A stretch of DNA of 64,000 nucleotides from Escallonia rubra. Its lineage: Eukaryota; Streptophyta; Magnoliopsida; Escalloniales; Escalloniaceae. The stretch covers positions 806,001 to 870,000 of the forward strand of contig JAVXUO010000518.1 in assembly GCA_033065855.1 (NCBI GenBank), written 5' to 3'. The notes beneath the pieces are model-generated. The model did no database searches. It was not told the DNA's origin and worked only from the letters and a program-made list of their open reading frames with translations. Positions 7,192 to 59,990 of this stretch are shown here, piece after piece (position 1 is the stretch's first letter; each line of letters starts with the position of its first letter). The position numbers were made by a program, and so were the translations under genes.

Positions 7192-7319
7192 GCTTTGCAT
7201 GTATGCATTATTGTTGCAGAAAGAAAACTAGCTCTAGCTTCTCCTCGATCTCTCTCTTTCTCATCTCACCTCTATCAGTTATTGCTTTTGAGCGACTGCT
7301 ACTTACAGCAAAACCAAAC

Positions 7320-8747
7320 ATGGGTCAGCTTCATGTGGTGTTCTTTCCACTGATGGCCCATGGCCACATGATACCAGTTCTACACATGGCCAAACTATTC
7401 GCTTCACGTGGCGTAAAAACAACCATCATCACCACCCGTCTCAATGCCCCCGTCTTCGCCAAGACAGTTGAAAGAAGCAAAAGTTTGGGGATGGAAATGG
7501 GCCTCCGTGTCATCAAGTTCCCGACAGTGGAGGTGGGTTTGCCCGAGGGATGCGAGAGCGCTGATCAGCTCACTTCAGATGACTTGCTTTCCAAATTCGT
7601 ACAAGCCCTCAGCATGCTCGAAGAACAGCTCGAGCAAGTGCTACAAGAGTGTCGTCCTAATTGCCTCGTTGCTGACATGTTTTTTCCTTGGGCTACTGAT
7701 GTTGCAGCCAAGTTTGATATCCCAAGACTGGTTTTCCACGGAACGAGCTTTTTCGCACTATGTGGTATGGAAAGCTTGAGAATTCACAAGCCCTACAAGA
7801 ACGTGTCTTCTGATTCCGAACCCTTTGTCTTGCCTGATCTTCCACACGAGATAAAGTTAACTAAAAAGCAAGTGTCTGAGCTTTTAACCGAAGAGCCTGA
7901 AACACAATTTTCCAAATTGTCAAGTCAAATGAGTGAGTCAGAGCTGAGAAGCTATGGAGTTGTTGTAAACAGCTTCTATGAGCTTGAACCTGATTATGCT
8001 GATCACTATAGGGAGGTCTTAAAGAGGAAGGCGTGGCATATCGGGCCAATTTTACTATGCAATAGAAGTGCTGAAGACAAAGCAGAAAGGGGAAAGAAAG
8101 CTTCCGTCGATGAAGATGACTGTTTGGAGTGGCTGGACTCCAAAAAACCAAACTCAGTGTTATATGTTTGTTTTGGAAGTATGGCAACATTTACCACTTC
8201 TCAATTGTATGAAATGGCAATGGGGCTTGAAGCTTCGGAACAACAATTCATTTGGGTTGTGAGGAGAGGAAAGGAGGAAGAAGAAGAGAAGTGGCTGCCG
8301 GAAGGATTTGAGGAGAGAGTGAAAGATAGAGGCTTGATCCTAAGAGGGTGGGCGCCCCAAGTTTTGATTCTCAATCATGAAGCTGTTGGCGGCTTTGTGA
8401 CTCATTGCGGGTGGAACTCAACACTGGAAGGAGTGTGTGCCGGCGTGCCTATGGTAACCTGGCCAGTGTTTGCGGAGCAGTTCTATAACGAGAAGTTAGT
8501 CACAGAGGTTTTGAGAACTGGTGTTGCTGTTGGTTCGAAGGAATGGAACAGATTGACCAGTGACGGGGTGAAAAGGGAAGCCATAGAGAACGCAGTGAAG
8601 CAGATAATGGTGGGCTCAGAAGCTGCGGAAAGAAGAGCTCGCGCCAAGGAGTTGAAGGAAAAGGCCAGGAAGGCTGTTGAAGAAGGCGGATCATCGTACT
8701 CTGATTTGAATGCTCTGTTTGAAGCACTGAGGTCCTATCGCTCTTGA
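7320..8747 (+). CDS. UGT73-type UDP-glycosyltransferase, copy B (intact)
   Basis: Intronless, 475 residues, nearly identical to copy A and presumably a cytosolic small-molecule glucosyltransferase. Catalytic His16 (MAHGHMIP) and Asp119 (LVADMFFPW) are present. PSPG is residues 344-387 (8349-8480), ending AEQ as is usual. The start is placed at MGQLHVVF; the in-frame ATG at 7203 lies between the TATA box and the expected transcription start. One oddity is His22 in VLHMAKLF, where every other copy in the window has Asp (LDMAKLF or LDMAR or VDMAR). The A and B coding regions and about 120 bp of 3' flank are very similar, then diverge at about 8857, so the duplication is fairly recent. Confidence 0.93.
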   Translation: MGQLHVVFFPLMAHGHMIPVLHMAKLFASRGVKTTIITTRLNAPVFAKTVERSKSLGMEMGLRVIKFPTVEVGLPEGCESADQLTSDDLLSKFVQALSMLEEQLEQVLQECRPNCLVADMFFPWATDVAAKFDIPRLVFHGTSFFALCGMESLRIHKPYKNVSSDSEPFVLPDLPHEIKLTKKQVSELLTEEPETQFSKLSSQMSESELRSYGVVVNSFYELEPDYADHYREVLKRKAWHIGPILLCNRSAEDKAERGKKASVDEDDCLEWLDSKKPNSVLYVCFGSMATFTTSQLYEMAMGLEASEQQFIWVVRRGKEEEEEKWLPEGFEERVKDRGLILRGWAPQVLILNHEAVGGFVTHCGWNSTLEGVCAGVPMVTWPVFAEQFYNEKLVTEVLRTGVAVGSKEWNRLTSDGVKREAIENAVKQIMVGSEAAERRARAKELKEKARKAVEEGGSSYSDLNALFEALRSYRS

Positions 8748-9062: not shown

Positions 9063-9639
9063 ACAGTACCGGTTGAGGATTTGAAAGAAAAGCTTAAAGA
9101 ACACACAAAGCTAGCGGCGGCACTGTAACCACTACAAGGAATAAGGTTTTTAACGATAGGAAAATCAGTCGCTAAAAGTTTGAAATCCGTCGTTAAACCT
9201 TTTACCAAAGGAAATACCGTCGCTAAAAGTCCTTTGTATAAAAGCCCGTTACTTAAAGTTTTGCGACGGAATTATAAAATCCGTCGTCTAATATAGAATT
9301 TTTTGTGACGGATTTGATATAAATTAGCGACGGAATATCTGTTGCTAATTCTATTCTACGTATATTAATTTATTTTCTTTTTTTGTGAAATTAGCGACGG
9401 AATAAATAAATTGGATTTTTAACGACATAAAAGGTTATAATTAAGTACGCTTTTAGCGACGGAATTAATCCGTCCTTAAAAGTCATTTTTTAATGTCCAA
9501 ACCTGTAATAAAAAATTCAATCCTCAACCTAATTAAAATATGGTTAATCAGGACTAATTATGGCTAATTATAGCCAGTGCTGGAACCACGATGAGATTCC
9601 AGGGGGTGCTAAGAATATCGCGTTAACCTAATTAACCTA

Positions 9640-10035
9640 AATTCAATGCATAATCAACAATCTCAATTTCGACACCTCATATAGGATGTCGATATGGTGT
9701 CCGATACGTGTCCGACACCCCCGGACACTTGTCCGACACTTACGACACGTGCTACCGACACGTGTCTGACACCTCCGTCAACAATCTCAATTCTCAAATG
9801 CGCAATGTAATAAAAATTAATAAAAATCACATATTCAATCCAATTGGGTCCCATTCTCTGTCAACAATCTCAATATCTCAAATGCTCAAATGCACGATTA
9901 ACAATCTAAAATCATCAATTAACAACCTAAAATCATCAATCAATAATCACAATTTTCAAATGCACAATTAACAACCTAAAATTATCAAAGTTCAAATAAC
10001 ACAAAATTGTTCAAAATGCACATATCCGATGCGAT
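9640..10035. repeat. Internal tract with GTGTCCGACAC repeats, shared with the element in UGT E
   Basis: A run of CGACACGTGTC / GTGTCCGACAC motifs (9690-9780) is followed by repeated AACAATCTAAAATCATCAAT-like units (9895-9990). The whole tract is the reverse complement of about 21470-22050 in the element that splits UGT E, so the two elements belong to one lineage in opposite orientation. Confidence 0.75.
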
Positions 10036-10069
10036 TAATTTAATTTAGGATTTAATTAGGACTCATAGT

Positions 10070-10525
10070 TCAACATTGGGGGAAAGCTTTTTCACAAGTG
10101 TTTTGATCAAACACCAGCACTTGAAAACGCATATGCCCCATGTGTTCAAAGACAACAAAATCTCCTAGATGGAGGTCATGCTGCTGCACGAATTTGTTCC
10201 AACCCTCTTCGAAACAAATTTTCTCTTGGCCGCGCTTCTTCTTGATTTTAACAAGCCATGACCCATTGCGGCTGGTTAAAGTTGTTTCCTTTGATCTCAC
10301 TGTGGTAAGCTGACTGCAAAAGGCTACCGGTATGGCCTAACATATTCATAGTACATTAAGACAGGTAAGCTTTTAACCAAAGATAATAGTGCGTACACAC
10401 ACGAAAACACAGAGAAAGATGGATGGCATACAAGTTATGTATGAAAACCAGACATCATGACCTTGAAGAAGTGCCTGCTGACTGAAACGTCCGTGTTCAC
10501 CGAAGCAGAAGCCATTTAACCTACT
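10070..10525 (-). pseudogene. B3-domain (REM-like) transcription factor fragment captured in CACTA element
   Basis: Two exon-like pieces on the minus strand. The first (about 10517-10440) encodes MASASVNTDVS followed by RHFFKVMMSGF, typical of the start of a REM-type B3 domain. The second (about 10312-10070) follows a good acceptor (TTTTGCAG) and encodes TLTSRNGSWLVKI, then GWNKFVQQHDLHLGDFVVF and MRFQVLVFD, the C-terminal half of a B3 DNA-binding domain. The middle of the domain between the pieces is missing, so it is a gene fragment rather than a functional factor. It sits wholly inside the CACTA-type element, which implies capture of host sequence. Confidence 0.75.
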
Positions 10526-10539
10526 TTAACATGAAAAAC

Positions 10540-11500
10540 CAATCCAACGAATATAGTTTAATTCAATATCTTTTAAATTTACATGCAAGCACAGCCTGTC
10601 CTTTTATTACATAATACACAGCTTTCTTATAGCTAGGACTAGCCCTAGGCTTGTACACTTGCAGTCCATGATTATACAAACATGTAAATACATGTATACC
10701 TACATTGTGTATATAAAGATGCATGTGGTCTAATCTAGTGTTGGATTGCTTTTCTGCTACAAACAACTCATCATCATTTCCCTTTTCTAGCACATATGGT
10801 TTTGGGGCTGTTGAGTAGTCCAGTTAAATGACTTTGGAGATGCTTATGACAACCATATGTCAATAGATGCTTGAATAATTCTAACAGCTTATTACATCAT
10901 AACCATATCAGGGGACCATCCTTGTTTATTATAAACCAAACTTTTTCTTGAGGAATAGTTGATATAAAGATAGTCTTTATCCCTTCATGCATGGGACCTT
11001 TGCCCCTAAAAGAAAAACATCCCCATACTCAAGCTCAAGCACTTCACCCCCACCCTCACCCCAAATTTAGCATCTATTTAAAGGAGACTGAAATCTCTAA
11101 TTTGACATGTCATGAGAGTGGTAAGTGTGCTTCGAGCTTTTTCGATTATAATATCAGGATTGGAATCAACCACGGATGTTGTACTGGGAAAGAACAAATT
11201 AAGCTACTGTTGCAATATCTTTTAAAATTCGAAATCATATGCAAATCAAAGACAAATAATATGCTGCAATTAAACCCTAAAACGGAACTTACCTTAAGGC
11301 ACAATAGTCGGCGGCAGTGGAGGGCGGCGACGTTGGTGGCAGGCTTTTCACTCGGCGGCAGTTGATGGGTCACCGTGGAGGGGGATTGCCGGAGGTGGGT
11401 CACCGTGGAGGTTGGTCGCCAGAGCTCAGAACAGTGGTGGGAGATTTTTCAGAGAGAGAAACGGGGGAAGAGAAAGAAAGGCAGATCTGGTTGTTTTAAT
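10540..11500. other. CACTA interior without an assignable gene
   Basis: Minus-strand frame 10563-10793 and plus-strand frame 10991-11365 are open but show no domain I recognise. The GC-rich part at 11300-11450 encodes low-complexity Gly/Arg-rich peptides and resembles captured 5' gene sequence. No function is proposed. Confidence 0.5.
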
Positions 11501-11813
11501 CGAGGACTTTTAGCGACTGATGCTTCCCGTCGCTAAAAGTCCGTCGGTAAATCACAATATTTATCGACGGAAGTTTTAGCGACAGATTCCTTCCGTCCCT
11601 AAAACAATTTTATAAGACCCTCGAAAAATTAATTTTGTAAAAAAGTTTTAGCGACGATAATTCCGTAGCTAAAAGACCGCCGCAAAAACGTTGTCGGCAA
11701 AAACTTTTGCCGACACTAACTGCGTCGGTAATAAGTTTTTAGCGACGAACATTTATCGACGGTGGTATCCGTCGGTAAAACTCCGTCGCTAAAAACGTGT
11801 TTTCTTGTGGCGA

Positions 11814-18567: not shown

Positions 18568-19273
18568 ACCCCAAAAAATTAAAGTAACTATCTTTGATGA
18601 AATAAGAATAAAATAATAAAATTGTGCAATATATTTTATTATGCATTTCAAAATTACTAAAATAAATTACTGTTAATAAACAATTCCGTGCTTAACACGG
18701 GATTATGGGCCAGTTACAGGTTAAAAGATGTTCATAGGTGTACTCCTTCCGAGTATCCAACTTGAAGCAGACATCTTATTATATCTCGCATGGAGTCAAA
18801 GCATCAGGCATACTTCCGTCTACTTGTCGACCTTGTCAATGACCTTTTGTGTTCCAGTTAGCTAAACTAAAACCCATAGATTGGACAATCCAATTACTCA
18901 CGTCAGCCCAAAAAGTTGTGGGATCACCACGAACAAGAACCTTCCATCACCTAACAAAATGTACTTCTAGGTAATTGCCCCAAAACACGACGAGTGCACT
19001 AACGTATTAGCGTTTGGCTGGTTGAAGAAACGTTGAAATTTTGCGCCTCAGGACTGCTCTAATTTTCTTGGAACCTCATCCACAAACTTGCATACAGAGG
19101 TCTACTACATTGGGCAATAGAATGACCCTTTTCTTCCTCATCACTTCTTCTTCAACGATTATTGCCTATATACATACGTAGATTAATCACTTGAGCCCAG
19201 TAGTCTCTTCTATTGTCTTCGACTCAACTATATCAGTGTTTTGCTGTAGGGCTTGCCACTTGACAAAACCAAC
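18567..19273 (+). repeat. Upstream region of UGT E, shared with UGT F1
   Basis: From about 18713 the sequence matches 4110-4654 before F1. A TATATA at 19167-19172 is a plausible core promoter, about 107 bp before the old start codon. The first 145 bp after the Helitron are AT-rich and unassigned. Confidence 0.65.
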
Positions 19274-20254
19274 ATGGGTCAGCTTCATGTGCTGTTCATG
19301 GCCACATGATACCAATGTTGGACATGGCCAAACTATTCGCTTCACGGGGCGTGAAAGCTACCATAATCACCACGCCTCTCAATGCGGCTGCGTTAACCAA
19401 GACAATTGAAAGAATCAAACATAAAAATTCGGGTATCGAAATTGGTCTTCGCGTCATCAAGTTTCCAGCAGTGGAGGCTGGTTTGCCTGAGGGATGCGAG
19501 AGCCTTGATCAGGTCCCTTCGAGCGCAATGATACCCAAGTTCTTTATTGCCACCTCCCTACTACAAGAACCGCTCGAGGAAGTCCTACGAGAATGCCGTC
19601 CTAAGTGCCTCATCGCTGACATGTTCTTTCCATGGGCTACTGATGTCGCGGCCAAGTTTGATATCCCTAGATTGGTTTTTCACGGAACGAGTTTTTTCGG
19701 GCTCTGTGTTGCTGCCAGCATAAGACTATACAAGCCCTTCAAGAACGTATTATCGGACACCGAGCCCTTTGTCGTGCCTAATCTTCCACACGAGATAAAG
19801 TTGATTAGAAAGCAAATGTCGCAGCATCAACGGGACGAGATTGAAACAGACTTCACCAAGTTGCTAAGTCAAGCTAGGGAGTCGGAGCTGAGAAGCTATG
19901 GAACTGTTGTAAATAGCTTCAATGAGCTTGAACAGGAATACGCTGATCATTACAGGAAGGTTTTGAAAAGGAATTAAGGCATGGCATATAGGGCCGCTTT
20001 CCCTATGCAACATGGAAAATGAAGATAAAGCTGAGAGGGGAAAGAAAGCTGCCATTGATGAGAACGAATGCTTGAAATGGCTAGACTCCAAGAAGCCCAA
20101 TTCTGTTACCTACATTTGTTTTGGAAGCGTTGTAAAATTTACCAACGCCCAGTTAAATCAGATGGCAATGGGACTAGAAGCTTCTGGACAACAATTCATC
20201 TTGGTTGTAAGGCACTACAAGAAAAGACGTCTTTTGCGACGGATTTTTAGCGAC

Positions 20255-20455
20255 GAAATCTATTCCGTCGCTAAAAGGAGTTTTACCGACGGAAACCTCC
20301 GTCAGTAAAACTCTGTCGTAAAATATTATTTAAGTGACGGAATAACTTCGTCGCTAAAAAGTCCGTCGAAATCTATTCCGTCGCTAAAAGGAGTTTTACC
20401 GACGGAAACCTCCGTCAGTAAAACTCTGTCGTAAAATATTATTTAAGTGACGGAA
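20255..20455 (+). repeat. 113 bp tandem duplication of CACTA subterminal repeats
   Basis: The unit starting GAAATCTATTCCGTCGCTAA occurs at 20255 and again at 20368 (period 113 bp). It contains several copies of the CCGTCGCTAAAA / TTACCGACGGA motifs. Confidence 0.85.
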
Positions 20456-21059
20456 CTGGGCAAGGGACATTAAAATTAAGATGACGACGCAATATGGGGA
20501 GGGGGGGTGGTGGTTTGCGGCGCCCCATATTGTCTCCTTGATAAATAACAATCTTGCGACGCAAAGAGTAAGTATATAAGTATTATTTGACAAGTCAACT
20601 GAATGACATTATAAAGTTTAATTCCCCATTTTGAAATTTATGTGGAATTTCGTAAAACTTAGAAACATGTAGTTGCCACTTGCGCTCACATTATTACGGT
20701 AAGATTTTATGGTCCATGTACTTCAAGGTCCAGCGCATCCGAAATGGACATATGGGGCTAAGCAACTTCCTTCGGCCCATCTTGTGTTGTATCCAAGAAC
20801 CCAAAGTAGAGTAGCACGCCTAGTCCTGTGAGTCTGTGACAAATTCTAGCCCATCACCTAGTACATTTCTTGTATTCTCAGTAATTTGAAATGAATTTGC
20901 TACACTTCTAGCAACTTTACAAAATTAAACAATCTTGCTTGACCTACTAATTTGACTAATAGTCATTTGTGGTAGGGCTTGATCATTCAATAGTCAATCT
21001 GGATAAAAAAAAATGTAAAACAAATATGTATGTACGAGTGTATGACCCATTTTAAACTA

Positions 21060-21475
21060 TATTTAAATTGAATACCCTAATTCAAGCATAAAGAGCAATA
21101 GCAAAATCAACTGAACCCTAAATTGAATCAATAGAACCCCCTAATTAAACCCTAAATTGAAGTAATTGAACCCTAATTAAACCCTAAATTGAATGCCTTA
21201 ATCGAATCGAACCCTAAATTAAACTAATTGAACCCTAAATTGAATACCCTAATCCAACTGAAACCTAAATTGAACCCTAAATTGAATGCCCCAAATCAAT
21301 CGAACCCTAAATTAAATCAATGGAACCCCTTAATTGATGTAATTGAACTCTAATTAAACCCTAAATTGAATGCCCTAACCGCCCTAATCGAACCGAACCC
21401 TAAATTAAACTAATTGAACCCTAAATTGAATGCCTAATACAATCAAACCCTAAATTGAAATAATTTAAGCGCAAC
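21060..21475 (+). repeat. Degenerate AACCCTAAATTGAA repeat tract
   Basis: About 20 imperfect units of ACCCTAAATTGAA with spacers such as TGCCCTAATC. The core resembles the plant telomere unit but no uninterrupted CCCTAAA array exists. It is internal to the CACTA-type element. Confidence 0.75.
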
Positions 21476-21711
21476 GGATATGTGCATTTTGAACATTTTT
21501 TTTTTCATTTGAACATTGATAATTTGTTTGATAATTTTAGGTTGTTAATTGTGCATTTGAGAATTGTGATTATTGATCTGTAATTTTAGATTGTTAATTG
21601 ATGATTTTAGGTTATTAGCTGTGCATTTGAAGTAATTGCGATTATTAATTGATGATTTTAGATTGTTAATTGTGCATTGAGCATTTGAGATATTGAGATT
21701 ATTGACGGAGG

Positions 21712-22270
21712 ATGGGACCCAATTGGATTGAATGTGTGATTTTTGTTAATTTTTATTGCATTGAGCCTTTTAGAATTGAGATTGTTGACGGAGGATGGGA
21801 CCCAATTGGATTGAGATACCTGTTAGTTAGCGCAGACACGGACACCACGTCTGATCGGCGGTGTCCGACATTTAAAAAATAAATTAATGTATGCCAATGT
21901 GTCTGGAGGTGCGTGTTGGTGGGCGTCGGACACGTGTCCGGAGGCGTCGGACACGTGTCGGTATGTGTCGGACACGAGTCCGGAGGTGTCGGACACGTGT
22001 CCGGAGGTGTCAAACACGTATCGGACACCATATGAGGTGTCGGAATTAAGGTTGTTGACGGAGGATGGGACCCAATTGGATTGAGATACCTGTTAGCTAG
22101 CGCAGACACGGACACCACGTTTGATCGACGGTGTCCGACATTTAAAAAACAAATTAACGTATGCCGATATGTCTGGAGGTGCGTGTCGGTGGGCGTCGAA
22201 CACGTGTCCGGAGGCGTCGGACACGTGTCGGTATGTGTCGGACACGTGTCCGACACATACCGACACGATT
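21712..22270 (+). repeat. 270 bp tandem repeat with palindromic CGGACACGTGTCCG motifs
   Basis: GTTGACGGAGGATGGGACCC starts units at 21784 and 22054 (period 270 bp), and a shorter partial unit starts at 21711. Each unit ends in a dense run of GTCGGACACGTGTC motifs, many of them perfect palindromes. The tract ends next to the UGT E 3' coding segment. Confidence 0.85.
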
Positions 22271-22489
22271 CATCCCACACGTCGAGCTAAGGAGCTCAAA
22301 GAGATGGCAAGAAAGGCTGTTGAAGATGGTGGTTCGTCTTACACCGATTTGACTGCTTTGATTGAAGACTTGTGTTCCTATAGCTCTTGAAAGGACTAGT
22401 TCATTTTGGATGATACGATGTGTAGCTAGTCTGTATTCGTTTAGACATGATGTTGTTGTTGCAATATACTTCCTTACTCTATGAGATTG

Positions 22490-22760
22490 CTCTAGCGAAG
22501 ACAATTATGGGCTTGTCGTAGGTTGTTTTTATGAGCTCGACCAAGCTTACGTTGATCTCTACAAAAAAGCTTGGTGTGTTGGTCCCTGAAGAGAAAAGAA
22601 ATTGTCACTTGATAGGCATAAATTCCTGAAATGGCTAGTTATTGTGTTTTGCGAGTGTTGCAAGACTTCTGAATTTTGAAAGTTTTATGGAAAGGCAGTG
22701 GGTGATGAAGCTTCTGGGCACCAATTAAGTGCAAGTGAATATTACTTGCCTACAGAGGGG
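22490..22760 (+). pseudogene. UGT copy G, strongly decayed UGT relic
   Basis: The stretch translates, with stops and shifts, to recognisable UGT73 landmarks: GCFYELDQAYVDLYKKAW and CVGP (compare NSFYELEPPYVDHYKK in UGT H), then KFLKWL and EASGHQL, in the order found in the intact genes. It lies just downstream of UGT E on the same strand. It is closer in wording to the H type (VDxYKK) than to A or E. No start, His or PSPG is recognisable. Confidence 0.65.
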
Positions 22761-27643: not shown

Positions 27644-27770
27644 GTTTTGCATGTATGCTTTATTGTTGCAGAAAGAAAACTAGCTCAGCTTCTCCTTGAT
27701 CTCTCTCTTTCGCATCTCAGATCTATCAGTTATTGCATCTGAGGGACTGTTACTTACAACAAAACCAAAC

Positions 27771-29198
27771 ATGGGTCAGCGTCATGTGGTGTTCTTTCCA
27801 CTGATGGCCCATGGCCACATGATACCAGCTCTAGACATGGCCAAACTATTCGCTTCACGTGGTGTCAAAACAACCATCATCACCACCCATCTCAATGCCC
27901 CCGTCTTCACCAAGACAGTTGAAAGAACTAAACATCTGGGGATGGAAATGGGCCTCCGTGTCATCAAGTTCCCCACGGTGGAGGCGGGTTTGCCAGAGGG
28001 ATGCGAGAGTCTTGATCAAGTCACTTCAGATGACTTGATTCCCAATTTCATAAACGCCCTCAGCATGCTCGAAGAACAGCTCGAGCAAGTGCTGCAAGAA
28101 TGTCGTCCTAATTGCCTCGTTGCTGACATGTTCTTTCCATGGGCTACTGATGTTGCAGCCAAGTTTGATATCCCAAGACTGGTTTTCCACGGGTCGAGCT
28201 TTTTCGCGCTGTGTGTTACGGAAAGCTTGAGACTTCACAAGCCCTACAAGAACGTGTCTTCTGATTCCGAACCCTTTGTCTTGCCTGATTTTCCACACGA
28301 GATAAAGTTAACTAAAAAGCAACTATATGGGCGTGAAACTGAAGAGGCCGAAACAGACTTTACCAAGTTCTTAAGTCAAGTGAGCGAATCATACCTGAGA
28401 AGCTATGGAGTTGTTTTTAATAGCTTCTATGAGCTTGAACCAGATTATGCTGATCACTATAGGAAGGTCTTAAAGAGGAAGGCGTGGCATATCGGGCCGA
28501 TTTTACTTTGCAATAGAGATGCTGAAGACAAAGCAGAAAGGGGAAAGAAAGCTTCCGTTGATGAAGCTGACTGTTTGAAGTGGCTGGACTCCAAAAAACC
28601 AAACTCGGTGTTATATGTTTGTTTTGGAAGTATGGCAACGTTTACCACTTCTCAATTGTATGAAATGGCAATGGGGCTTGAAGCTTCTGGACAACAATTC
28701 ATTTGGGTTGTGAGGAGAGAAAAGGATGAAGAAGATGAGAAGTGGCTGCCGGAAGGATTTGAGGAGAGAGTGAAAGATAGAGGCTTGATCATAAGAGGGT
28801 GGGCGCCCCAAGTTTTGATTCTCAATCATGAAGCTGTTGGCGGCTTTGTGACTCATTGCGGGTGGAACTCAACACTGGAAGGAGTGTGTGCTGGCGTGCC
28901 TATGGTAACCTGGCCAGTGTTTGCGGAGCAGTTCTATAACGAAAAGCTAATCACAGAGGTTTTGAGAACTGGGGTTGCTGTTGGTTCGAAGGAATGGAAC
29001 AGATTGACCAGTGACGGGGTGAAAAGGGAAGCCATAGAGAACGCAGTGAAGCAGATAATGGTGGGCTCAGAAGCTGCGGAAAGAAGAAGTCGCGCCAAGG
29101 AGTTGAAGGAAAAGGCAAGGCAGGCTGTTGAAGAAGGCGGATCATCGTACTCTGATTTGAATGCTCTGTTTGAAGCATTGAGGTCCTATCGCTCTTGA
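27771..29198 (+). CDS. UGT73-type UDP-glycosyltransferase, copy C (intact)
   Basis: Intronless, 475 residues, starting MGQRHVVFFP. The frame is open upstream but has no ATG there. Catalytic His16 and Asp119 (LVADMFFPW) are present and PSPG is residues 344-387 (28800-28931), ending AEQ, which predicts UDP-glucose use. It differs from A and B mainly in the acceptor half: RTKHLGMEM, DQVTSDDLIPNF, and QLYGRETEEAETDFTKFL in place of the QVSELLTEEPETQFSKL type of sequence. Position 4 is Arg instead of Leu. It lies between the E/G wrecks and pseudogene D, matching the E-C-D order inferred for the array. The acceptor is unknown. Confidence 0.93.
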   Translation: MGQRHVVFFPLMAHGHMIPALDMAKLFASRGVKTTIITTHLNAPVFTKTVERTKHLGMEMGLRVIKFPTVEAGLPEGCESLDQVTSDDLIPNFINALSMLEEQLEQVLQECRPNCLVADMFFPWATDVAAKFDIPRLVFHGSSFFALCVTESLRLHKPYKNVSSDSEPFVLPDFPHEIKLTKKQLYGRETEEAETDFTKFLSQVSESYLRSYGVVFNSFYELEPDYADHYRKVLKRKAWHIGPILLCNRDAEDKAERGKKASVDEADCLKWLDSKKPNSVLYVCFGSMATFTTSQLYEMAMGLEASGQQFIWVVRREKDEEDEKWLPEGFEERVKDRGLIIRGWAPQVLILNHEAVGGFVTHCGWNSTLEGVCAGVPMVTWPVFAEQFYNEKLITEVLRTGVAVGSKEWNRLTSDGVKREAIENAVKQIMVGSEAAERRSRAKELKEKARQAVEEGGSSYSDLNALFEALRSYRS

Positions 29199-29939: not shown

Positions 29940-30089
29940 GGTAGCCTAAACTGTATTCTTGCAGTAGTCACTTTTCAGGAGAACTAGCTCAACTTTCTCC
30001 TCTCTCGCTCTCTCTCTCTCTCTCTCGCTGCCTTCTATCTCAACTCTATCAGTAATTTCTAAGACACTGCCGCTTGAACAAAATCAATT

Positions 30090-31504
30090 ATGGTTCGGCT
30101 TCATGTATTGTTCTTTCCATACATGGCCCATGGCCACATGATTCCAACTCTAGACATGGCCAAACTATTCACTTCACATGGTGTAAAAACAACCATCATC
30201 ACTACTCCTCTCAATGCCTCCGTCTTTGCAAAGACAATCGAAAGAACCAAACGTTTGGGGGCAGATATTGGCCTCCGTGTCATTAAGTTCCCAACAGTGG
30301 AGGCCGGTTTACCCGAAGGATGTGAGTGTGCTGATCAAATCACTTCGAATCACCTGCTTCCCATATTTGTTAACGCTACTACCATGCTTCAAGAACAGCT
30401 TGAGCAAGTGATACCAGAGTGTCGTCCAAATTGCCTCGTTGCTGACATGCTGTTTCCATGGGCTACTGGTGTCGCAGCCAAGTTTGACATCCCCAGACTG
30501 GTTTTCCATGGAACGAGCTTTTTGGCACTGTGAGCCATGGACAGCTTGAGACTCTACAAGCCGTTTAAGAGCGTGTGTTCAGATTCCCAACCCTTTATTT
30601 TGCCTGATCTTCCACACGAGATAAAGTTAACCAGAAAACAGTTGTCTCCTCTTGAAATAGCAGACTGAAACAATTTTAACCAAGTTTCTAAGTCAAGTGC
30701 AGGAGTCAGAGCTGACAAGATATGGAGTTATTGTTAACAGCTTCTACGAACTTGAACCAGATTACGCTGTTCATTACACAAAGATCTTGGAAAGGAAGGC
30801 GTGGTATATAGGGCCGCTGTAACTATGCAATAAGGAAATTGAAGATACAGCGGAGAGGGGAAAGAAAGCTTCCATTGATGAAAATGAATGCTTGAAATGG
30901 CTGAACTCGAAGAAACCAAATTCAGTAATTTATGTTTGTTTTGAAAGTATGGCAATATTGACTACTACTCAATTGTATGAGATGGCGATGGGGCTTGAAG
31001 CTTCTGGGCAACAATTTATTTGGGCTGTAAGGAGGTGCAAGGATGAAGAGAAGTGGCTGCCGGAAGGATTTGAACAGAGGGTGAAAGGTAGAGGGTTGGT
31101 CATAAGAGGGTGGGCGCCCCAAGTGCTAATTCTTGATCATGAAGCTGTTGGCGGTTTTGTGACTCATTGCGGGTGGAACTCAACGCTGGAAGGAGTGTGT
31201 GCTGGCGTTCCTTTTGTGACTTGGCCAGTGTTCGCGGAGCAGATCTATAAAGAAAAGGACACAGGTTTTGAGAACCGGGGTTGCTGTTGGTTCCAAGGAA
31301 TTCAATAGATTTGCAAGCGACGGTGTCAAAAGGGAAGAGATAGAAGAGGCGGTGAAGCGGATAATGGTTGGCGAAGAAGCCGAAGAAAGAAGAAGTCGAG
31401 CCAAGGAGCTTAAAGAGACGGCAAGGAAGGCCGCTGAAAAAGGCGGATCCTCTTACACTCAGTTGAATGCTTTGTTTGAAGGTTTGAGTTCGCGTTGCTC
31501 TTGA
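30090..31504 (+). pseudogene. UGT copy D, UGT73 pseudogene with several stops and frameshifts
   Basis: Starts cleanly (MVRLHVLFFPYMAHGHMIP, catalytic His kept; VADMLFPW keeps the Asp). Lesions, in order: TGA at 30531-30533 where the paralogs have Cys (ALC), TGA at 30666-30668 together with a frameshift nearby, TAA at 30820-30822 in the GPLxLCN segment, and a second frameshift at about 31258-31268 in the KEKxxTEVL segment. PSPG ([20 protein letters not shown] onward) is readable, and the 3' end runs to a stop at 31504. The three open segments use three different frames. This is a unitary, multiply broken gene that decayed in place. Confidence 0.95.
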
Positions 31505-31879
31505 AGAAAGCAAGAATCAAAACAGAGATCGCCTCTATGCCCTTGTGCTTGTGTTTGCCTTATCATCATTTTTCTCAAGTGCTTGAATGTGGTTCATGCA
31601 CTTACCTCAATGTGTACCCTTAGTTATGAGCAATGACTTGGTTTATATATCTTGGCCAATGAAAGCTAGCATATAAACCTGTGCACACTTGATCAATCTA
31701 TTAATCTTCTCACTTTGTAACTCCCCTTTAAGATAACTCCGTAACTGTTGAAGAACTTCTTAGGTGCATTAAATGGCATAAATAAATAAGAGAAGACATG
31801 CTTTTCTTTTGTTTTCAACTTAGCTTTATGCTTTCATTTCTCACAGTGAGCGAGAGACTTCTCCTAACAATTTGACACC
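31505..31879. other. Short intergenic region between UGT D and UGT H
   Basis: AT-rich spacer with D's 3' flank and H's leader. No gene is visible. Confidence 0.6.
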
Positions 31880-34395
31880 ATGAATGCTGAGGCTGAAACT
31901 GATCAGCTTCACATCATGTTGTTACCTTTGATGGATATTGGCCACATGCTCCCTACTTTAGACATGGCCCGGGTTTTTGCTGCCCACGGCGTGAATATTA
32001 CTATTGTCACCACACCTCGCAACGGCCCTTTCTTCGCCAACACAATCCAGAATTCCGCAAAGTGCACTTCTCAGATAAGTATCCGAATCGTTAAGTTTCC
32101 TGCAAAAGAGGCTGGCCTTCCAGAAGAAATCGAAAACATTGACCAAATCACAAGTCAAGAGGTACACCGCAAATTCTTCAATGCACTAAGCATGCTCCAA
32201 GAACCTTTGGAACAACTCCTATCAGAATGTAGTCCTCATGCTCTTGTCGCGGATATGTTCTTCCCATGGACTACCGATCTCGCGTCGAAATTCCGAATAC
32301 CAAGATTAGTTTTTTATGGTACTGGATTTTTCCCGATGTGTGCGTTGGGTAGTTTGATGAAGTACAAGCCGCACAAGAAGGTTACGTCTGATACTGAACC
32401 GTTCACATTGCCTGGACTTCCCGACGAGATCAAATTAACAAGACTGAAACTCCCACCTCATATCAGACTAGAATTTGAAGACGATTTCATAAGATTACTC
32501 CGTAGAGCTAAAGATTCCGCAGAGACAAGTTATGGGGTTATCGTAAATAGTTTTTATGAACTCGAGCCACCTTATGTTGATCATTACAAGAAGGAAAAGA
32601 GGGCATGGCATATTGGTCCTGTCTCACTTTGCAATAAAGATACCAAAGATAAGGCTCGACGAGGCAAGAAGTCGTCAGGTGATGAGCACGAGTGCTTGAA
32701 ATGGCTCGATTTGAGGAAACCCAATTCGGTTGTGTACTTGTGCTTTGGTAGTGTTGCACGATTTTCAGACTGGCAGCTTAATGAAACGGCAATGGGGCTT
32801 GAAGCTTCTGGGCAACATTTTATATGGGTTACAAGGCAAGAAAAGGAGGAAGATGGAAGTGAACATCACTTGCCTGAAGGGTTTGAGGAGAGGATGGGAG
32901 GAAAGGGCTTAATAATAAGGGGTTGGGCACCACAAATGTTGATTCTTGATCACAAGGCAATTGGAGGATTTGTGACACATTGTGGGTGGAACTCTATTCT
33001 GGAAGGAGTTGGTGCTGGCTTACCTATGGTGACTTGGCCCATGTCCGGAGAGCAATTTTTTAACGAAGAATTGATAACTAAGGCCCCGTACGCTTACCAT
33101 ATTAGTATCCTGTTTTTGTTTTCTGTTTTTGTTTTCCATATTCTTGTATTCAGTTCCAAAATTTGATCGTGTACTTTTATAATTTTTTTTCAGTTTTTCG
33201 TTTTTACTTTTTTCAGTTAATCTTGTATGTTTACCATTTTCATTTTCATTTTCAGTAACTTTCTTGAATCCATTCTTGTATGTTTAGCATTTCCTACACT
33301 ATTTGTACCCATATTTTCCCATTTTAACCCTACTTTTAACCTACCAAATTATTTTTATACCCTCTATATCTTCTCAATAACTCCTCCATACCAGCCTTTT
33401 ACATTTCCCAATTCGGTCATCAGTCTGACCATGGACGGACTTCCCCATTTCTGCAGATTGACTTCCCCTCTCCCTTTCCCTTTCATTACTTTTCTCTTCT
33501 TCTCTCTCTTCTCTCAATCTCGCCGCTACTCACAGTGACTCCCCCCACGGCGACCAAACCTTCATCCCCCCCACGGCGACCAAACCTTCACTCCCCCCAC
33601 GGTGACAAACCACCTTCATACTGCAACTTGGTCTGAAATACTGCAACTTGCCCTACGCCGGCCAACCAGACAGGTAGGCGGACTAGCAGACCGCACCATC
33701 GCAGACACCACTTGGCCATTTACCGGCGACGGGCAACGGCGATGGAAGGCCAGCTCAAATCTGGAATGAATTGAGGCGCCGACTGGAGACGGCGTCTCCG
33801 TCTTCTCTGTGAATTGAGGCGCCGACTGGAGATGTGCAATGAATCACAGGCAGAGAGGGAGGGGGAGAGAGGAGAGCTGTGACGTGACTAGGCATGTAGG
33901 CTTCGTAGAGCTTGTAAGAGAGAACCGTGAACAGTGGGAACCCATGCCTCACTCTTCAGAGTTTTCTCTGACAAGAGTTCGGCCGATTGAGAAAAGGTGA
34001 AAACACCTTTGAGGTGTTTTCACGTTTTCTACACTGTTCACTGTTTTTGGATCCGATACAAATACAAAAAATGGTAAAAGTACACGAAATATTCCGTTTT
34101 TTCGTAATCATTACAAAAAACGGAAAACAAATACTCTAAACGTACGGGGCCTAAGGTTCTCAAAATAGGTATCGGGGTAGGGGCGCAACAATGGATTAGG
34201 TTACTGGGGGATCGCGTTAAGAGGGACGCGATAGGAAGAGCAGTGAGGCAGATAATGGTGGGTGAGGAAGTTGAGGAAATGAGGAGGAGGGCCAGAGCTC
34301 TTGGAGAGATGGCAAGGAGGGCTACTGAAGAAGGTGGATCATCTTACACTAATTTAAATGCTTTAATTGAAGAATTGAGGTTGTATCGGGCTTAG
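31880..34395 (+). pseudogene. UGT copy H, UGT73 gene interrupted by a PIF/Harbinger-like insertion
   Basis: A distinct UGT73 member starting MNAEAETDQLHIMLLPLMDI, with catalytic His22, Asp in LVADMFFPW, and a full PSPG motif ending GEQ. After about 400 codons (EELITK) the frame meets a 1,070 bp insertion at 33082-34151 and soon stops (33166). The remaining coding region continues in frame after the insertion (KVLKIGIGVG onward) to a stop at 34395 (ending LRLYRA). Without the insertion and one TAA duplication, the gene would be about 480 codons with no other lesion, so the disruption looks recent. An intron-like removal of the insert is not supported: the GT and AG sites near the ends give a frameshift. 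The truncated product would keep the donor motif but lose the C-terminal helix region. Confidence 0.92.
33082..34151. mobile_element. PIF/Harbinger-like non-autonomous element in UGT H
   Basis: Perfect 11 bp inverted ends GGCCCCGTACG (33082-33092) and CGTACGGGGCC (34141-34151), with the 3 bp target duplication TAA on each side (33079-33081, 34152-34154). Terminal GGSCC and a TAA/TTA duplication are typical of PIF/Harbinger (Tourist) elements. Inside are three tandem copies of a CTCCCCCCACGGCGACCAAA-like unit (33538-33610) and a 43 bp duplication of GAATTGAGGCGCCGACTGGA (33769 and 33812). No transposase is present. Confidence 0.88.
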
Positions 34396-36110
34396 TTTGG
34401 ACATGAGATTCTTTTGTACCCGTCATCCTTCTCTCCTTCTTAAATAGACCAGCACAAACTTGCGAACATTAGAAAGTGATCTTTGGCTACACAGAACATT
34501 ATGGTGATGCATCTTTTAAAAAATGAAAACTTGTCAATATACATTGTTGGGAATCGATATTGGGAGGTTTTTAACCAATTTCAAAGACTAATATTGGGAA
34601 ACATCGATGATCATAAAGCACTTAGATCAAGAAAAGGATGTTTGTGTATATTTGCTTCTGAAGAGTTGGAAGGCTCATCCTCATTAAATTCAAAGTTGGG
34701 TACTAATGTTCTGAAATTTTATTAAATGAACAAGATTGACTTTAATTTTAGGGTCAAAACTGAGAACGGTCCCAAAGAAGAAAGAACAAGAATAGATACC
34801 AAATGCATCACTTTTTTTGTTTCCGTTCTTTAAAATGAAAGTTCAAGAATCAAGAAAAAGAATGTTGCCAAACACCACCATAAATACCCGATCGAAATGA
34901 AAAGGTGATCCTATTGGTGTTTTTATTTGGCTATTTTCCTTTTATTGCTGGCATTTTTAAGTTGGTTCATGACATGCTTTACAGTTGATTCGTGCATAAG
35001 GTACAAATTATATAGTGAACATGAAGTCTCATTAGTCCAAATAAGAGCGTTAATCAGATGTTCTTTGTTAACGTTCCAAAAAAATAAAAAAACAAATAGA
35101 ACCCCGAATGGTGGGGCCTTGCAAAGCACCAACAAGAGGCTACAGTAGCCCAAATCCCAAATTGTAAGTCCAAAAATTGTGCCTAGAAAAGTAGTTTTAT
35201 TTTTTAAAGCACACACCCAAAAGTTCAAAGGCCCAACAAAACAGAACAAACCGAAGAGCGGATAAGTTTTTCACTGCTCTTTTATTACTATTTTTTTCTC
35301 GCACCATATGAAAAACAAAATATAGTAACTATACAGCGACAAAAGGAGCCGTGCACAACCACTGCAAGGGTATCATTATTTTTTATACTGTATTCAGAGT
35401 GATGTCTCTTAATCGGTAACCGTTAGAGCTGCAAATGAGTCGAGCAGTGTTTGCAGTATTTTATGTCGCAATCAAATCTGGATTGTTTATTTTTCACGTC
35501 GAGAAATGCTCATGTGTTCACTTTTCATTCAATTATTATCCTTTTGAGCTAAATACGAGTAAATGCGTGCAAATACTCTTAACCCGGACAAGAAATCTAA
35601 ACGGGAAATGTTACTCATTAATATGATGTCCCATTATAATTTCTTCATATCTTTCTATACTATATATAACGAGAACACTCATTTTGGTGTTACACAATTA
35701 GCTATCTAGAATAGTCACAAGTATTATGAGAAAATTCTTTGAAAATGACACAAAATAAAAATATTAAGTAACTACTTTAAGGACATGTTTGATTTTCACA
35801 TTTTGAAACACTTATATGCAATACTGCAATACTTTATTATTTATATAACAAGTTTCAATATAACAACTTCAGTTTTACTTGCAAATGGGACCATTTAAAA
35901 TTTATTAAAAAAATATAGTCAAAATACATTTCAAAAGTCAAGTTTGATATTGTGAAAATATTATATTATTAACTTCATTTGCGTAGACGCACCGAGTATC
36001 TTATCGGTCTCGTAACGAGACCAACTTCAAACATATTCATGGTCCATAACTTTTGTATCCGACTCACATGGTAAGGGTTTGCACACGCAGTAATCACGTC
36101 CCGAATTTTT
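34396..36110. other. Intergenic, no gene seen
   Basis: 3' flank of UGT H, then AT-rich DNA. Short frames show no domain. A stretch near 35221 (AAAGTTCAAAGGCCCAACAAAA) resembles one near 3692 (AAAGTTCAAAGGCCCAGCAAAA), hinting at a shared dispersed repeat. Confidence 0.5.
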
Positions 36111-57219: not shown

Positions 57220-59990
57220 TAATCTTGCCCTTGGCAACTGGAAAGTGGAATGACATTGAGATCTAAGGTCAGAGGTGCAGCTTAAATTTTTAATGCATCC
57301 AATTTGTTTGAAAAGATAGACACTTACAAGAGATTATTCTGCAATTGATGAGGATTTCCTATAACACTTTCTTCTACCAAATAGTTCCAGGTATGTAACA
57401 ATGCCTACCTAGTGTCAACGACGGACAACTGACTCTGCAAACGTTAATCCTACTAACCACAGATATTTCAGCCCCAAAAACCAAAAATATAATAATAAGT
57501 TCTCCGTTGATACGAACTGTTTGGTAGAAATGAATTTTGTTCTTATCACCTCGTTTTCTTTCCTTTTTTTTTTCTAGTATCTTTCTTTTTTTGTGGCCGT
57601 CCACCTTGCTTTCTATCAAGAACATAAAATTGCGCTAGTCATACCCACCACAGCATCCAGACGTGGAAACTCAATGATGGCGTGAATACGACCAGGAAAA
57701 TTCAACCAATCTTCACCGACTAGAATCCATAACAGCTTACCAGTCCTTATGCACCTAAATTATTGTTTTCCATGTATACTATGCCTTCCAGGACACATAT
57801 TTAGACAAGCTAATTCACAACTAATCAGATGCATTAGTTTACATTACGAATTTCAAAGTTTCGAACAGCTCTCTCATATAAGTCACCGCAGATGAAATTA
57901 TTGTCATGCAATTAACACAAGAATTTCTTCCTAACCCGAGTACCAACAATCTATAGCTTGACAGCCTAAAGCACTGAATGAAAGAAAACATTCAGTTTCT
58001 TAAGGAAGCAAATGAAAATTGCGTACAGTCAAAAAGCTGAGCGGAACTAAAGGAATTAAAGAGTAATACCTCAGATTTTACGCAAATATCTTGATCAGGT
58101 GTTCTACTGCAAGCGTAAAGGTTCAGACTTGAAGGTAAACTACGTTAATCTGATCCTTTCGAATAAGGTACGTTTGGTTAAAAAGAAAAGGGGAAAGTTC
58201 GTTTGGGTAAGGATCAAATATCATATAGTCTCGGGGTTTTAGGGTAAATTCTATTACAACCCTAGACCTATATTTTGTACCATTTTAACCTTGCACTTAA
58301 TTATCGCTCTCAATTGAACCCTAGATTGTACTCATAGTTAAAATATTAACAACTTTACAGTGAGGCTAAATGCAAGCTTTTTTGTCATTAAAAGAGGTAT
58401 TCGTGACACTTTTAACTCTTCACTGACGAAAGCGCAAGAATGTAACCAAATAAGGCCCTGGATTTTGTCGGTCCTACCATAATTTGCCCCAATTTAAGCT
58501 TTCAATCGGAAATGATAACGGATTGACCTATATTTGGACCTTTTTAAAAGCATAAAAGTTTTGAAAACGACAAATATATTCAAATCGTCTACTTTTATTT
58601 CTATTTCTATAGCAAACATCAAAGTTTGGGTTCAACTAATATAAACAGTTCAGTGAGGGGGTACAAACCAAATATATTGTCTAGTTTTCTGTAAAATATA
58701 CCTCTAAACTCCACAGTCGCAATAATACTTGATGTTTTTAGCCATAAGCGAGTAATATGATTGTATAGGTTCATATTGGTCATGCATTGTTGAGTTTGTC
58801 CCTTGTTTTTTTGTTCATATATGAGTAGGGGATGCATGTATTGAAACTTCCAATCGTATTAATATTTGACATGCAACAACCTTATGAACAATATACATAT
58901 TGCTCTTATCTGCTACTCAATAATCAAATGATGAAAGCATGTGGATCATCTGAACAATTGCGATTGTTGACATATAAGTGATTCACACGCACAAAAACCC
59001 TCACACAATCTCGCACGAAAGGTGTACAAAAAACTCACACAAAGATGCAGGAAATCCAACAAAATGCACATCTCAACTTCCTTTCCTCTTCATCGTCCGT
59101 GCCTAAAAAATCTACATTAGATTAAACACTTTCATTTTAATCAGCATCGGAATAATTTTGCTCTGCAAGCCATCTCTTTTATCCTGAAAGCTGAACATTC
59201 CTCTTATGACCTATTTTGTTTGTTCGAAAGGCTATGGTATTCCCATTGCTACAAACAGATGCAAGGGCTGATCGCTTGGGTTTGATAGCCACATTACCAT
59301 CCTTTTATGGGAAGAGACCAAGCTGGACACGTATTAGGAGGCTGAGCAAGAGCACTCATGTATATGTGACAAGATTTGCACATTTGATTAACAGAACAAA
59401 GGGGATCAACAACGAGATTCTTAAAAACCAAGTTTGTTACGAAGCATCCGTACATAAATCAACAAGAGTAATTGCAAACAAGAAGTACTTAGAAAATTCT
59501 ACAAGGCTAGACGAGAAGTTTTGTGCTTATGAACGATGACTAATTGTGCAAGTTGTTTTAAGCTCAATGTCTTGAACTTGCACTTATTGGGTGACCTAAG
59601 AATTGAGTTTAGATCCATCAGCACAAAACTTCAAAATTTTACGTTAAACAAGTATGCACGCTCAACTGCATTGTGTTTTAGACTTATTTTTCAAAAATTA
59701 TTACACAGTGTTAAACTTGCATCACAAAATTACTGCACCTTTAATAAAGTTTTTGCATGTTAGCATCGATTGGACGAGGACAACTTTGTGGTATTAACAC
59801 TTCGTATTACAAATATGCCACTTGGTTTATTTATTGGGCAAAAACTATGTTATGTCATACTCATGTTATGTAAAATTTGGGTCAACATAGAAGTAGGGTT
59901 GTAATCATAAAAAGACAATGTTTATTAGGGGTCAACATATGAAACAACAAAAGATAAGTACTCAAGAGGAAATACAATAATTTCGTATTG
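57220..59990. other. Intergenic, no gene seen
   Basis: AT-rich DNA upstream of the PTEN2-like gene. Open frames such as 59216-59539 (+) show no recognisable domain and no codon bias that would support a gene. The PTEN2 promoter probably lies at the right end of this stretch. Confidence 0.5.

Follow-up and report, generated by a model that had tools for sequence, protein, structure and literature searches.

A transposon insertion, most likely PIF/Harbinger-like, interrupts a predicted UGT73-type glycosyltransferase gene in Escallonia rubra

In the 64,000-nucleotide stretch of Escallonia rubra DNA analysed here (contig JAVXUO010000518.1, positions 806,001 to 870,000; hereafter the window), a single transposon insertion interrupts a UGT gene, termed H, at codon 401. 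Very probably, H was a functional UGT73-type gene until a non-autonomous element, most likely of the PIF/Harbinger type, entered it at a TAA in codon 401. The parts of the interrupted gene and the boundaries of the insert are as follows.

31880..33081, + strand: 5′ part of H, from codon 1 through the first two bases of codon 401 (from frame, Pfam and PDB)
33079..33081, no strand: left TAA target-site duplication (TSD; from sequence)
33082..34151, no strand: class II element of 1,070 bp, most likely non-autonomous and PIF/Harbinger-like by TSD and ends
33082..33092, + strand: left terminal inverted repeat (TIR), GGCCCCGTACG (from sequence)
33082..33166, + strand: element-encoded hydrophobic tail and stop, closing a 428-aa frame (from frame)
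34141..34151, - strand: right TIR, CGTACGGGGCC (from sequence)
34152..34154, no strand: right TAA TSD (from sequence)
34155..34395, + strand: 3′ part of H, from the third base of codon 401 through codon 480 to the stop (from frame and PDB)

A first-pass annotation had placed at 33079..34154 an insert whose 11-bp inverted ends and TAA duplication are both perfect, in a coding sequence otherwise undamaged over about 480 codons, and had stated that its clean loss would leave a full reading frame. These coordinates are exact and correspond to TSD, element and TSD, the inverted ends and the duplication are both present there, and H carries no further stop or frameshift. Omission of the element and one TAA gives a frame of 480 aa from the ATG at 31880 to a stop ending at 34395, as had been proposed, and the resulting join (the empty site) reads ATAACTAAGG. 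Across this join, the alignment of H with four paralogues in the window (A, B, G and I, at 1322, 7203, 27696 and 52265) is gap-free, and precise excision would leave the H frame open. The present frame of H runs from the ATG at 31880 to a stop at 33166 and encodes 428 aa, comprising 401 gene codons and 27 codons from the element; the last base of codon 401 is now supplied by the element, and Lys is still encoded.

As 7 pairs of 11-bp inverted sequences with a 3-bp direct repeat outside, at most 3 kb apart, were found in the window, against a mean of 1.6 (range 0-6) in 20 dinucleotide shuffles, the pairing of TIR and TSD is by itself no proof of insertion. The insertion call is secure because the ends coincide with the break in a conserved UGT frame and with a gap-free paralogue alignment once the unit is omitted, and because the sequence beyond the insert matches the C-terminal part missing from the 5′ piece. 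The remaining 6 pairs in the window resemble short palindromes or repeated motifs.

The 5′ piece of H (31880-33079) generated a hit on UDPGT (PF00201) in Pfam at 4e-19, and its best match in PDB was 6lzx at 4.4e-147. The 3′ piece generated no hit in Pfam and, searched as 34108-34392, matched residues 414-505 of 6lzx, the glycosyltransferase C-terminus, at 5.2e-23. UGT73C1 (PDB 9x43) and SgUGT73AM30 (PDB 26fx) were among the four best structure matches of H. The 44-residue PSPG box is present at aa 349-392, just before the insert, and His22 and Asp125, whose counterparts in solved plant UGTs are catalytic, are kept. By these matches H is a predicted UGT73-type family-1 glycosyltransferase. Both of its pieces align with UGT73-type plant enzymes (6lzx, 9x43 and 26fx), but unlike them H is split and truncated, with its C-terminal piece lying past the insert rather than in a single frame with the rest. 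As 27 element codons and a stop are added and the last 79 codons are separated, the allele is probably null or near-null. TATA-like strings, recorded without a chance control, lie 5′ of H at 31642 and 31672.

In the proposed course of events, a transposase acting in trans would have inserted the element at TAA by a cut-and-paste route, and a 3-bp staggered cut, expected from the family (PMC4561436), would have duplicated the TAA. Translation would then proceed through 27 element codons, forming the hydrophobic tail, to the stop, and the last 79 residues of H would be lost and, with them, presumably enzyme activity. The tail of the 428-aa frame has a Kyte-Doolittle mean of 2.37 over 19 residues. 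A membrane-anchored truncated UGT fusion was considered and rejected: both alternative forward frames across the T-rich end likewise encode many F, L, V, I, S and C residues, the enzyme C-terminus is missing, and the tail was taken as chance.

The internal organization of the element includes the following features.

33082..33188, + strand: left long imperfect inverted arm, pairing with 34066-34151
33538..33609, + strand: 20-nt direct repeat, three copies spaced 26 bp, within the GC-rich core of the element
33646-33665: weaker fourth copy of the 20-nt repeat (75%)
33990..34030, no strand: short internal hairpin with 19-nt arms, 95% complementary
34066..34151, - strand: right long imperfect inverted arm

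Inverted similarity extends inward past the TIRs (36 nt at 78% and 22 nt at 91%), and the alignment score beyond the 11 bp was 64.5, against 41.8 +/- 5.4 with a maximum of 56.1 in 300 shuffles. The element core (33510-33937) is GC-rich (0.53-0.61, a range reached in four of the ten 107-bp tenths of the element), and the arms are AT-rich. Copies of the element should be recognizable by its termini, TAAGGCCCCGTACG; a second copy was not found within the 64-kb window. The Pfam search of the element covered 8 pieces, taken from 33 listed stop-to-stop ORFs, and detected no transposase or coding remnant (best E 0.078). A captured gene in the GC-rich core was also considered, and was rejected as the two Pfam matches of these pieces (E 0.078 and 0.091) fell below the cut-offs. 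A search of 31500-35500 against Rfam gave nothing at E up to 0.1, and one 25-letter pattern from the element end gave 0 matches in a collection of viral contigs, which is unlikely to hold plant DNA.

The element is most likely a non-autonomous class II element of PIF/Harbinger-like type, a label applied because of the TAA TSD, of the 3-bp TAA/TTA kind, on both sides and the GC-rich ends starting with GG (PMC2213677, PMC6850418), the latter being perfect over 11 bp where a G start, usually GG, is expected. As both ends read G(N)5GTA, and not G(N)5GTT, it is named without a family. The end of mPing, an element of 430 bp, likewise departs from G(N)5GTT. This core is the search rule of one Medicago survey, which also gives TIRs of 14-25 bp for autonomous PIF/Harbinger elements (PMC2213677), and the perfect 11 bp of the present TIR fall short of that range. 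At 1,070 bp the element is longer than MITEs, which one account puts at under 500 bp (PMC4561436) and another typically at 70-800 bp (PMC9519581). The designation in the first-pass annotation as a PIF/Harbinger-like insert stands on the TAA and the GG-starting ends, and is weakened by the differing core, a length that is large for a MITE, and the lack of a transposase remnant in the 8 pieces and of a second copy in the window. At 58451, the window contains a TAAGGCCCTGG string (TAAGGCCC-type) that is like a PIF/Harbinger-type left end; no right end matching it was found.

The departure from G(N)5GTT, together with long imperfect arms and a GC-rich core that are atypical for a MITE, would also suit some other class II type with a 3-bp duplication. 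Such an assignment is unlikely, as TAA and GG-starting ends suit PIF/Harbinger, the flanks carry no 8- or 9-bp duplication of the kind left by hAT or Mutator insertions, and the ends are not CACTA. A further reading takes the insert as an intron, removed wholly or nearly so by splicing, so that H still makes its enzyme. TAAGG flanks the insert on both sides, and a GC-AG splice (AAG/GC...AAG/G) would restore the exact frame, but this pair sums to only -11.7 of a possible maximum of about 19, and among 127 frame-keeping donor/acceptor pairs the top sum is 0.3, for a pair whose use would delete coding sequence. These scores used rough splice-site frequencies and a self-set penalty of 6 for GC donors, and from this crude enumeration splicing out of the insert was rejected as unsupported; we regard it as scarcely credible.

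It is also quite improbable that the PIF/Harbinger-like element landed in a cluster member that was already non-functional through a silent promoter or missense loss. The cluster does hold decayed UGTs, namely E (19265-22387) and, directly upstream of H, the pseudogene F (30078-31492) with 2 in-frame stops and two frame changes, and some residues of H, including His330 and, within the PSPG box, Ser389, are unusual and differ from those of A, B, G and I. Against this, the identity of H to the four full-length UGTs in the window is 56-60%, which makes H neither a close duplicate nor a recent copy of any of them, and its long branch, low omega and lack of any other lesion suggest that constraint lasted until late, within the limits set by saturated dS. 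In a branch codon model (473 codons, five genes), omega was 0.13 on H and 0.23 in the background (2dlnL 4.94, p 0.026, uncorrected for the five branches tried). The short branches of A, B and G, which gave 0.79, 0.62 and the upper bound when freed in turn, inflate the background value, and gene I, with a branch omega of 0.15, is the fairer comparison. Private changes numbered 61 in H and 49 in I (p = 0.29), and radical private changes 16 and 17, respectively. Saturation of dS between H and the other genes (3.48 for G and undefined for A, B and I) makes the H omega imprecise. When a neutral tail of 6% was simulated, the value of 0.13 rose only to 0.17 on average over 8 replicates, and a tail of 12% brought it to 0.235; the selection test is blind to a recent loss of the kind proposed. 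The first-pass annotation had named relaxed-selection changes in the rest of H as evidence against its reading, and no excess of change was found, in a test that is weak with dS saturated.

The same annotation had called the insertion fresh, and that H carries no other lesion does mark it as young, but only within a loose bound of about 1.1-2.5% neutral divergence. In H, 4.1% of neutral substitutions would create a stop; if indels are assumed to occur at 0.05 to 0.17 per substitution and to shift the frame in 85% of cases, zero lesions bound the neutral divergence at 2.5% to 1.1% (95%). With a rate taken as 7e-9 per site per year, this corresponds to about 3.5 to 1.6 million years. The perfect 11-bp ends, which had been offered as a sign of youth, do not serve as one: the longer arms agree at only 76 of 92 aligned positions, with several indels, and the perfect 11 bp are uninformative on age because the transposase presumably needs that part. 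The insertion is young, yet old enough for sharing among species. The first-pass annotation thus read the sequence accurately, and its conclusion holds broadly but claims too much on age. As no other lesion has accumulated, we infer that H was lost within the last few million years, and the loss was probably fairly recent.

Other parts of the cluster also contain broken genes and repeats. In UGT fragment E, which spans 19265-20224 and has its tail at about 22283-22387, an interruption starts from a CACTACAAGAAA string at 20213, and about 120 codons are missing. This string resembles a CACTA-type end, and its exact reverse complement was not found in the window. Repeated ACACGTGTCCG-type motifs lie at 21930-22228, inside the interruption of E, and a further UGT fragment follows the tail at 22491-22751, a poor mid-protein match of about 35% identity. 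At 9324-11810 there are TTAGCGACGGA inverted motifs and an AAA repeat, and similar GCGACGG motifs occur at the interruption of E; the TTAGCGACGGA and GCGACGG motifs faintly suggest that the cluster holds one more family of repeats. The intact and similar genes A (1322-2869), B (7203-8747) and G (27696-29198) gave pairwise dN/dS of 0.42-0.47, and the branch omega of G reached the upper bound in the branch model. Possible causes of these high values are gene conversion, poor polarisation, or relaxed or diversifying evolution following a recent duplication.

Tourist-like elements generally excise precisely (PMC4561436), and in the account of mJing one TSD was kept in 48 of 97 excision events, with other footprints in the rest (PMC6850418). 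As smaller elements were excised more often in yeast, in a study of which the small element is 430 bp (PMC10288884), the 1,070-bp copy in H is not favoured for excision. It is a long shot that H is a segregating, reversible null, in which a still mobile element family and precise TAA-guided excision restore the enzyme in some cells, individuals or close relatives; if true, one glycoside would be present or absent within the species. Genes of tandem clusters broken by transposons are expected and ordinary, and H is a well-preserved case that leaves knowledge of transposons and of glycosyltransferases unchanged. It illustrates cleanly how genes are born and die in a tandem UGT cluster of a plant, and the insert provides a ready presence/absence marker, which, if the empty allele still segregates, could tie one UGT to one metabolite.

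The exact 11-bp end had no occurrence in the literature text searched, and GGCCCCGT with MITE and TAA as substrings gave listed matches that are unrelated by title. No literature on UGT with 'MITE insertion' was found, the sole match to Harbinger, MITE, excision and UGT concerns whitefly, and neither the search for UGT73, transposon and pseudogene nor that for Tourist, Harbinger, glucosyltransferase and revertant returned anything on this case, by title, among the matches listed. Among known systems, the rice PIF/Harbinger elements mJing/Jing likewise have TSDs that are mostly TAA/TTA and an 11-bp TIR starting with GGC, and mJing is also a non-autonomous copy interrupting a gene; in that account, however, the mJing TIR, GGCTGTGTTCG, has the GTT core, the copy in HTD1 is flanked by TAC rather than TAA, and mJing comprises 72 members with observed excision, whereas the H element is known from one sequenced copy (PMC6850418). 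The MtPH families of Medicago have TIR consensus sequences such as GGGCCTGTTTGR and TAA/TTA flanks, as in the H element, but G(N)5GTT was a condition of their selection and their consensus TIRs are 12-22 bp long, compared with G(N)5GTA and 11 perfect bp here (PMC2213677). The rice Tourist-like MITE mPing also makes a 3-bp duplication, which permits precise repair on excision, and is described as active and small, whereas the element in H measures 1,070 bp and is known from sequence alone (PMC4561436). The element dTstu1 in a potato flavonoid hydroxylase gene is of the Stowaway type, unlike the H element, and a variant lacking it was interpreted as an excision event, its colour possibly being due to reversion, where the H element offers only its sequence; like the H element, it lies in an exon of a specialised-metabolism gene, in an interruption reversible by excision (PMC12595863).
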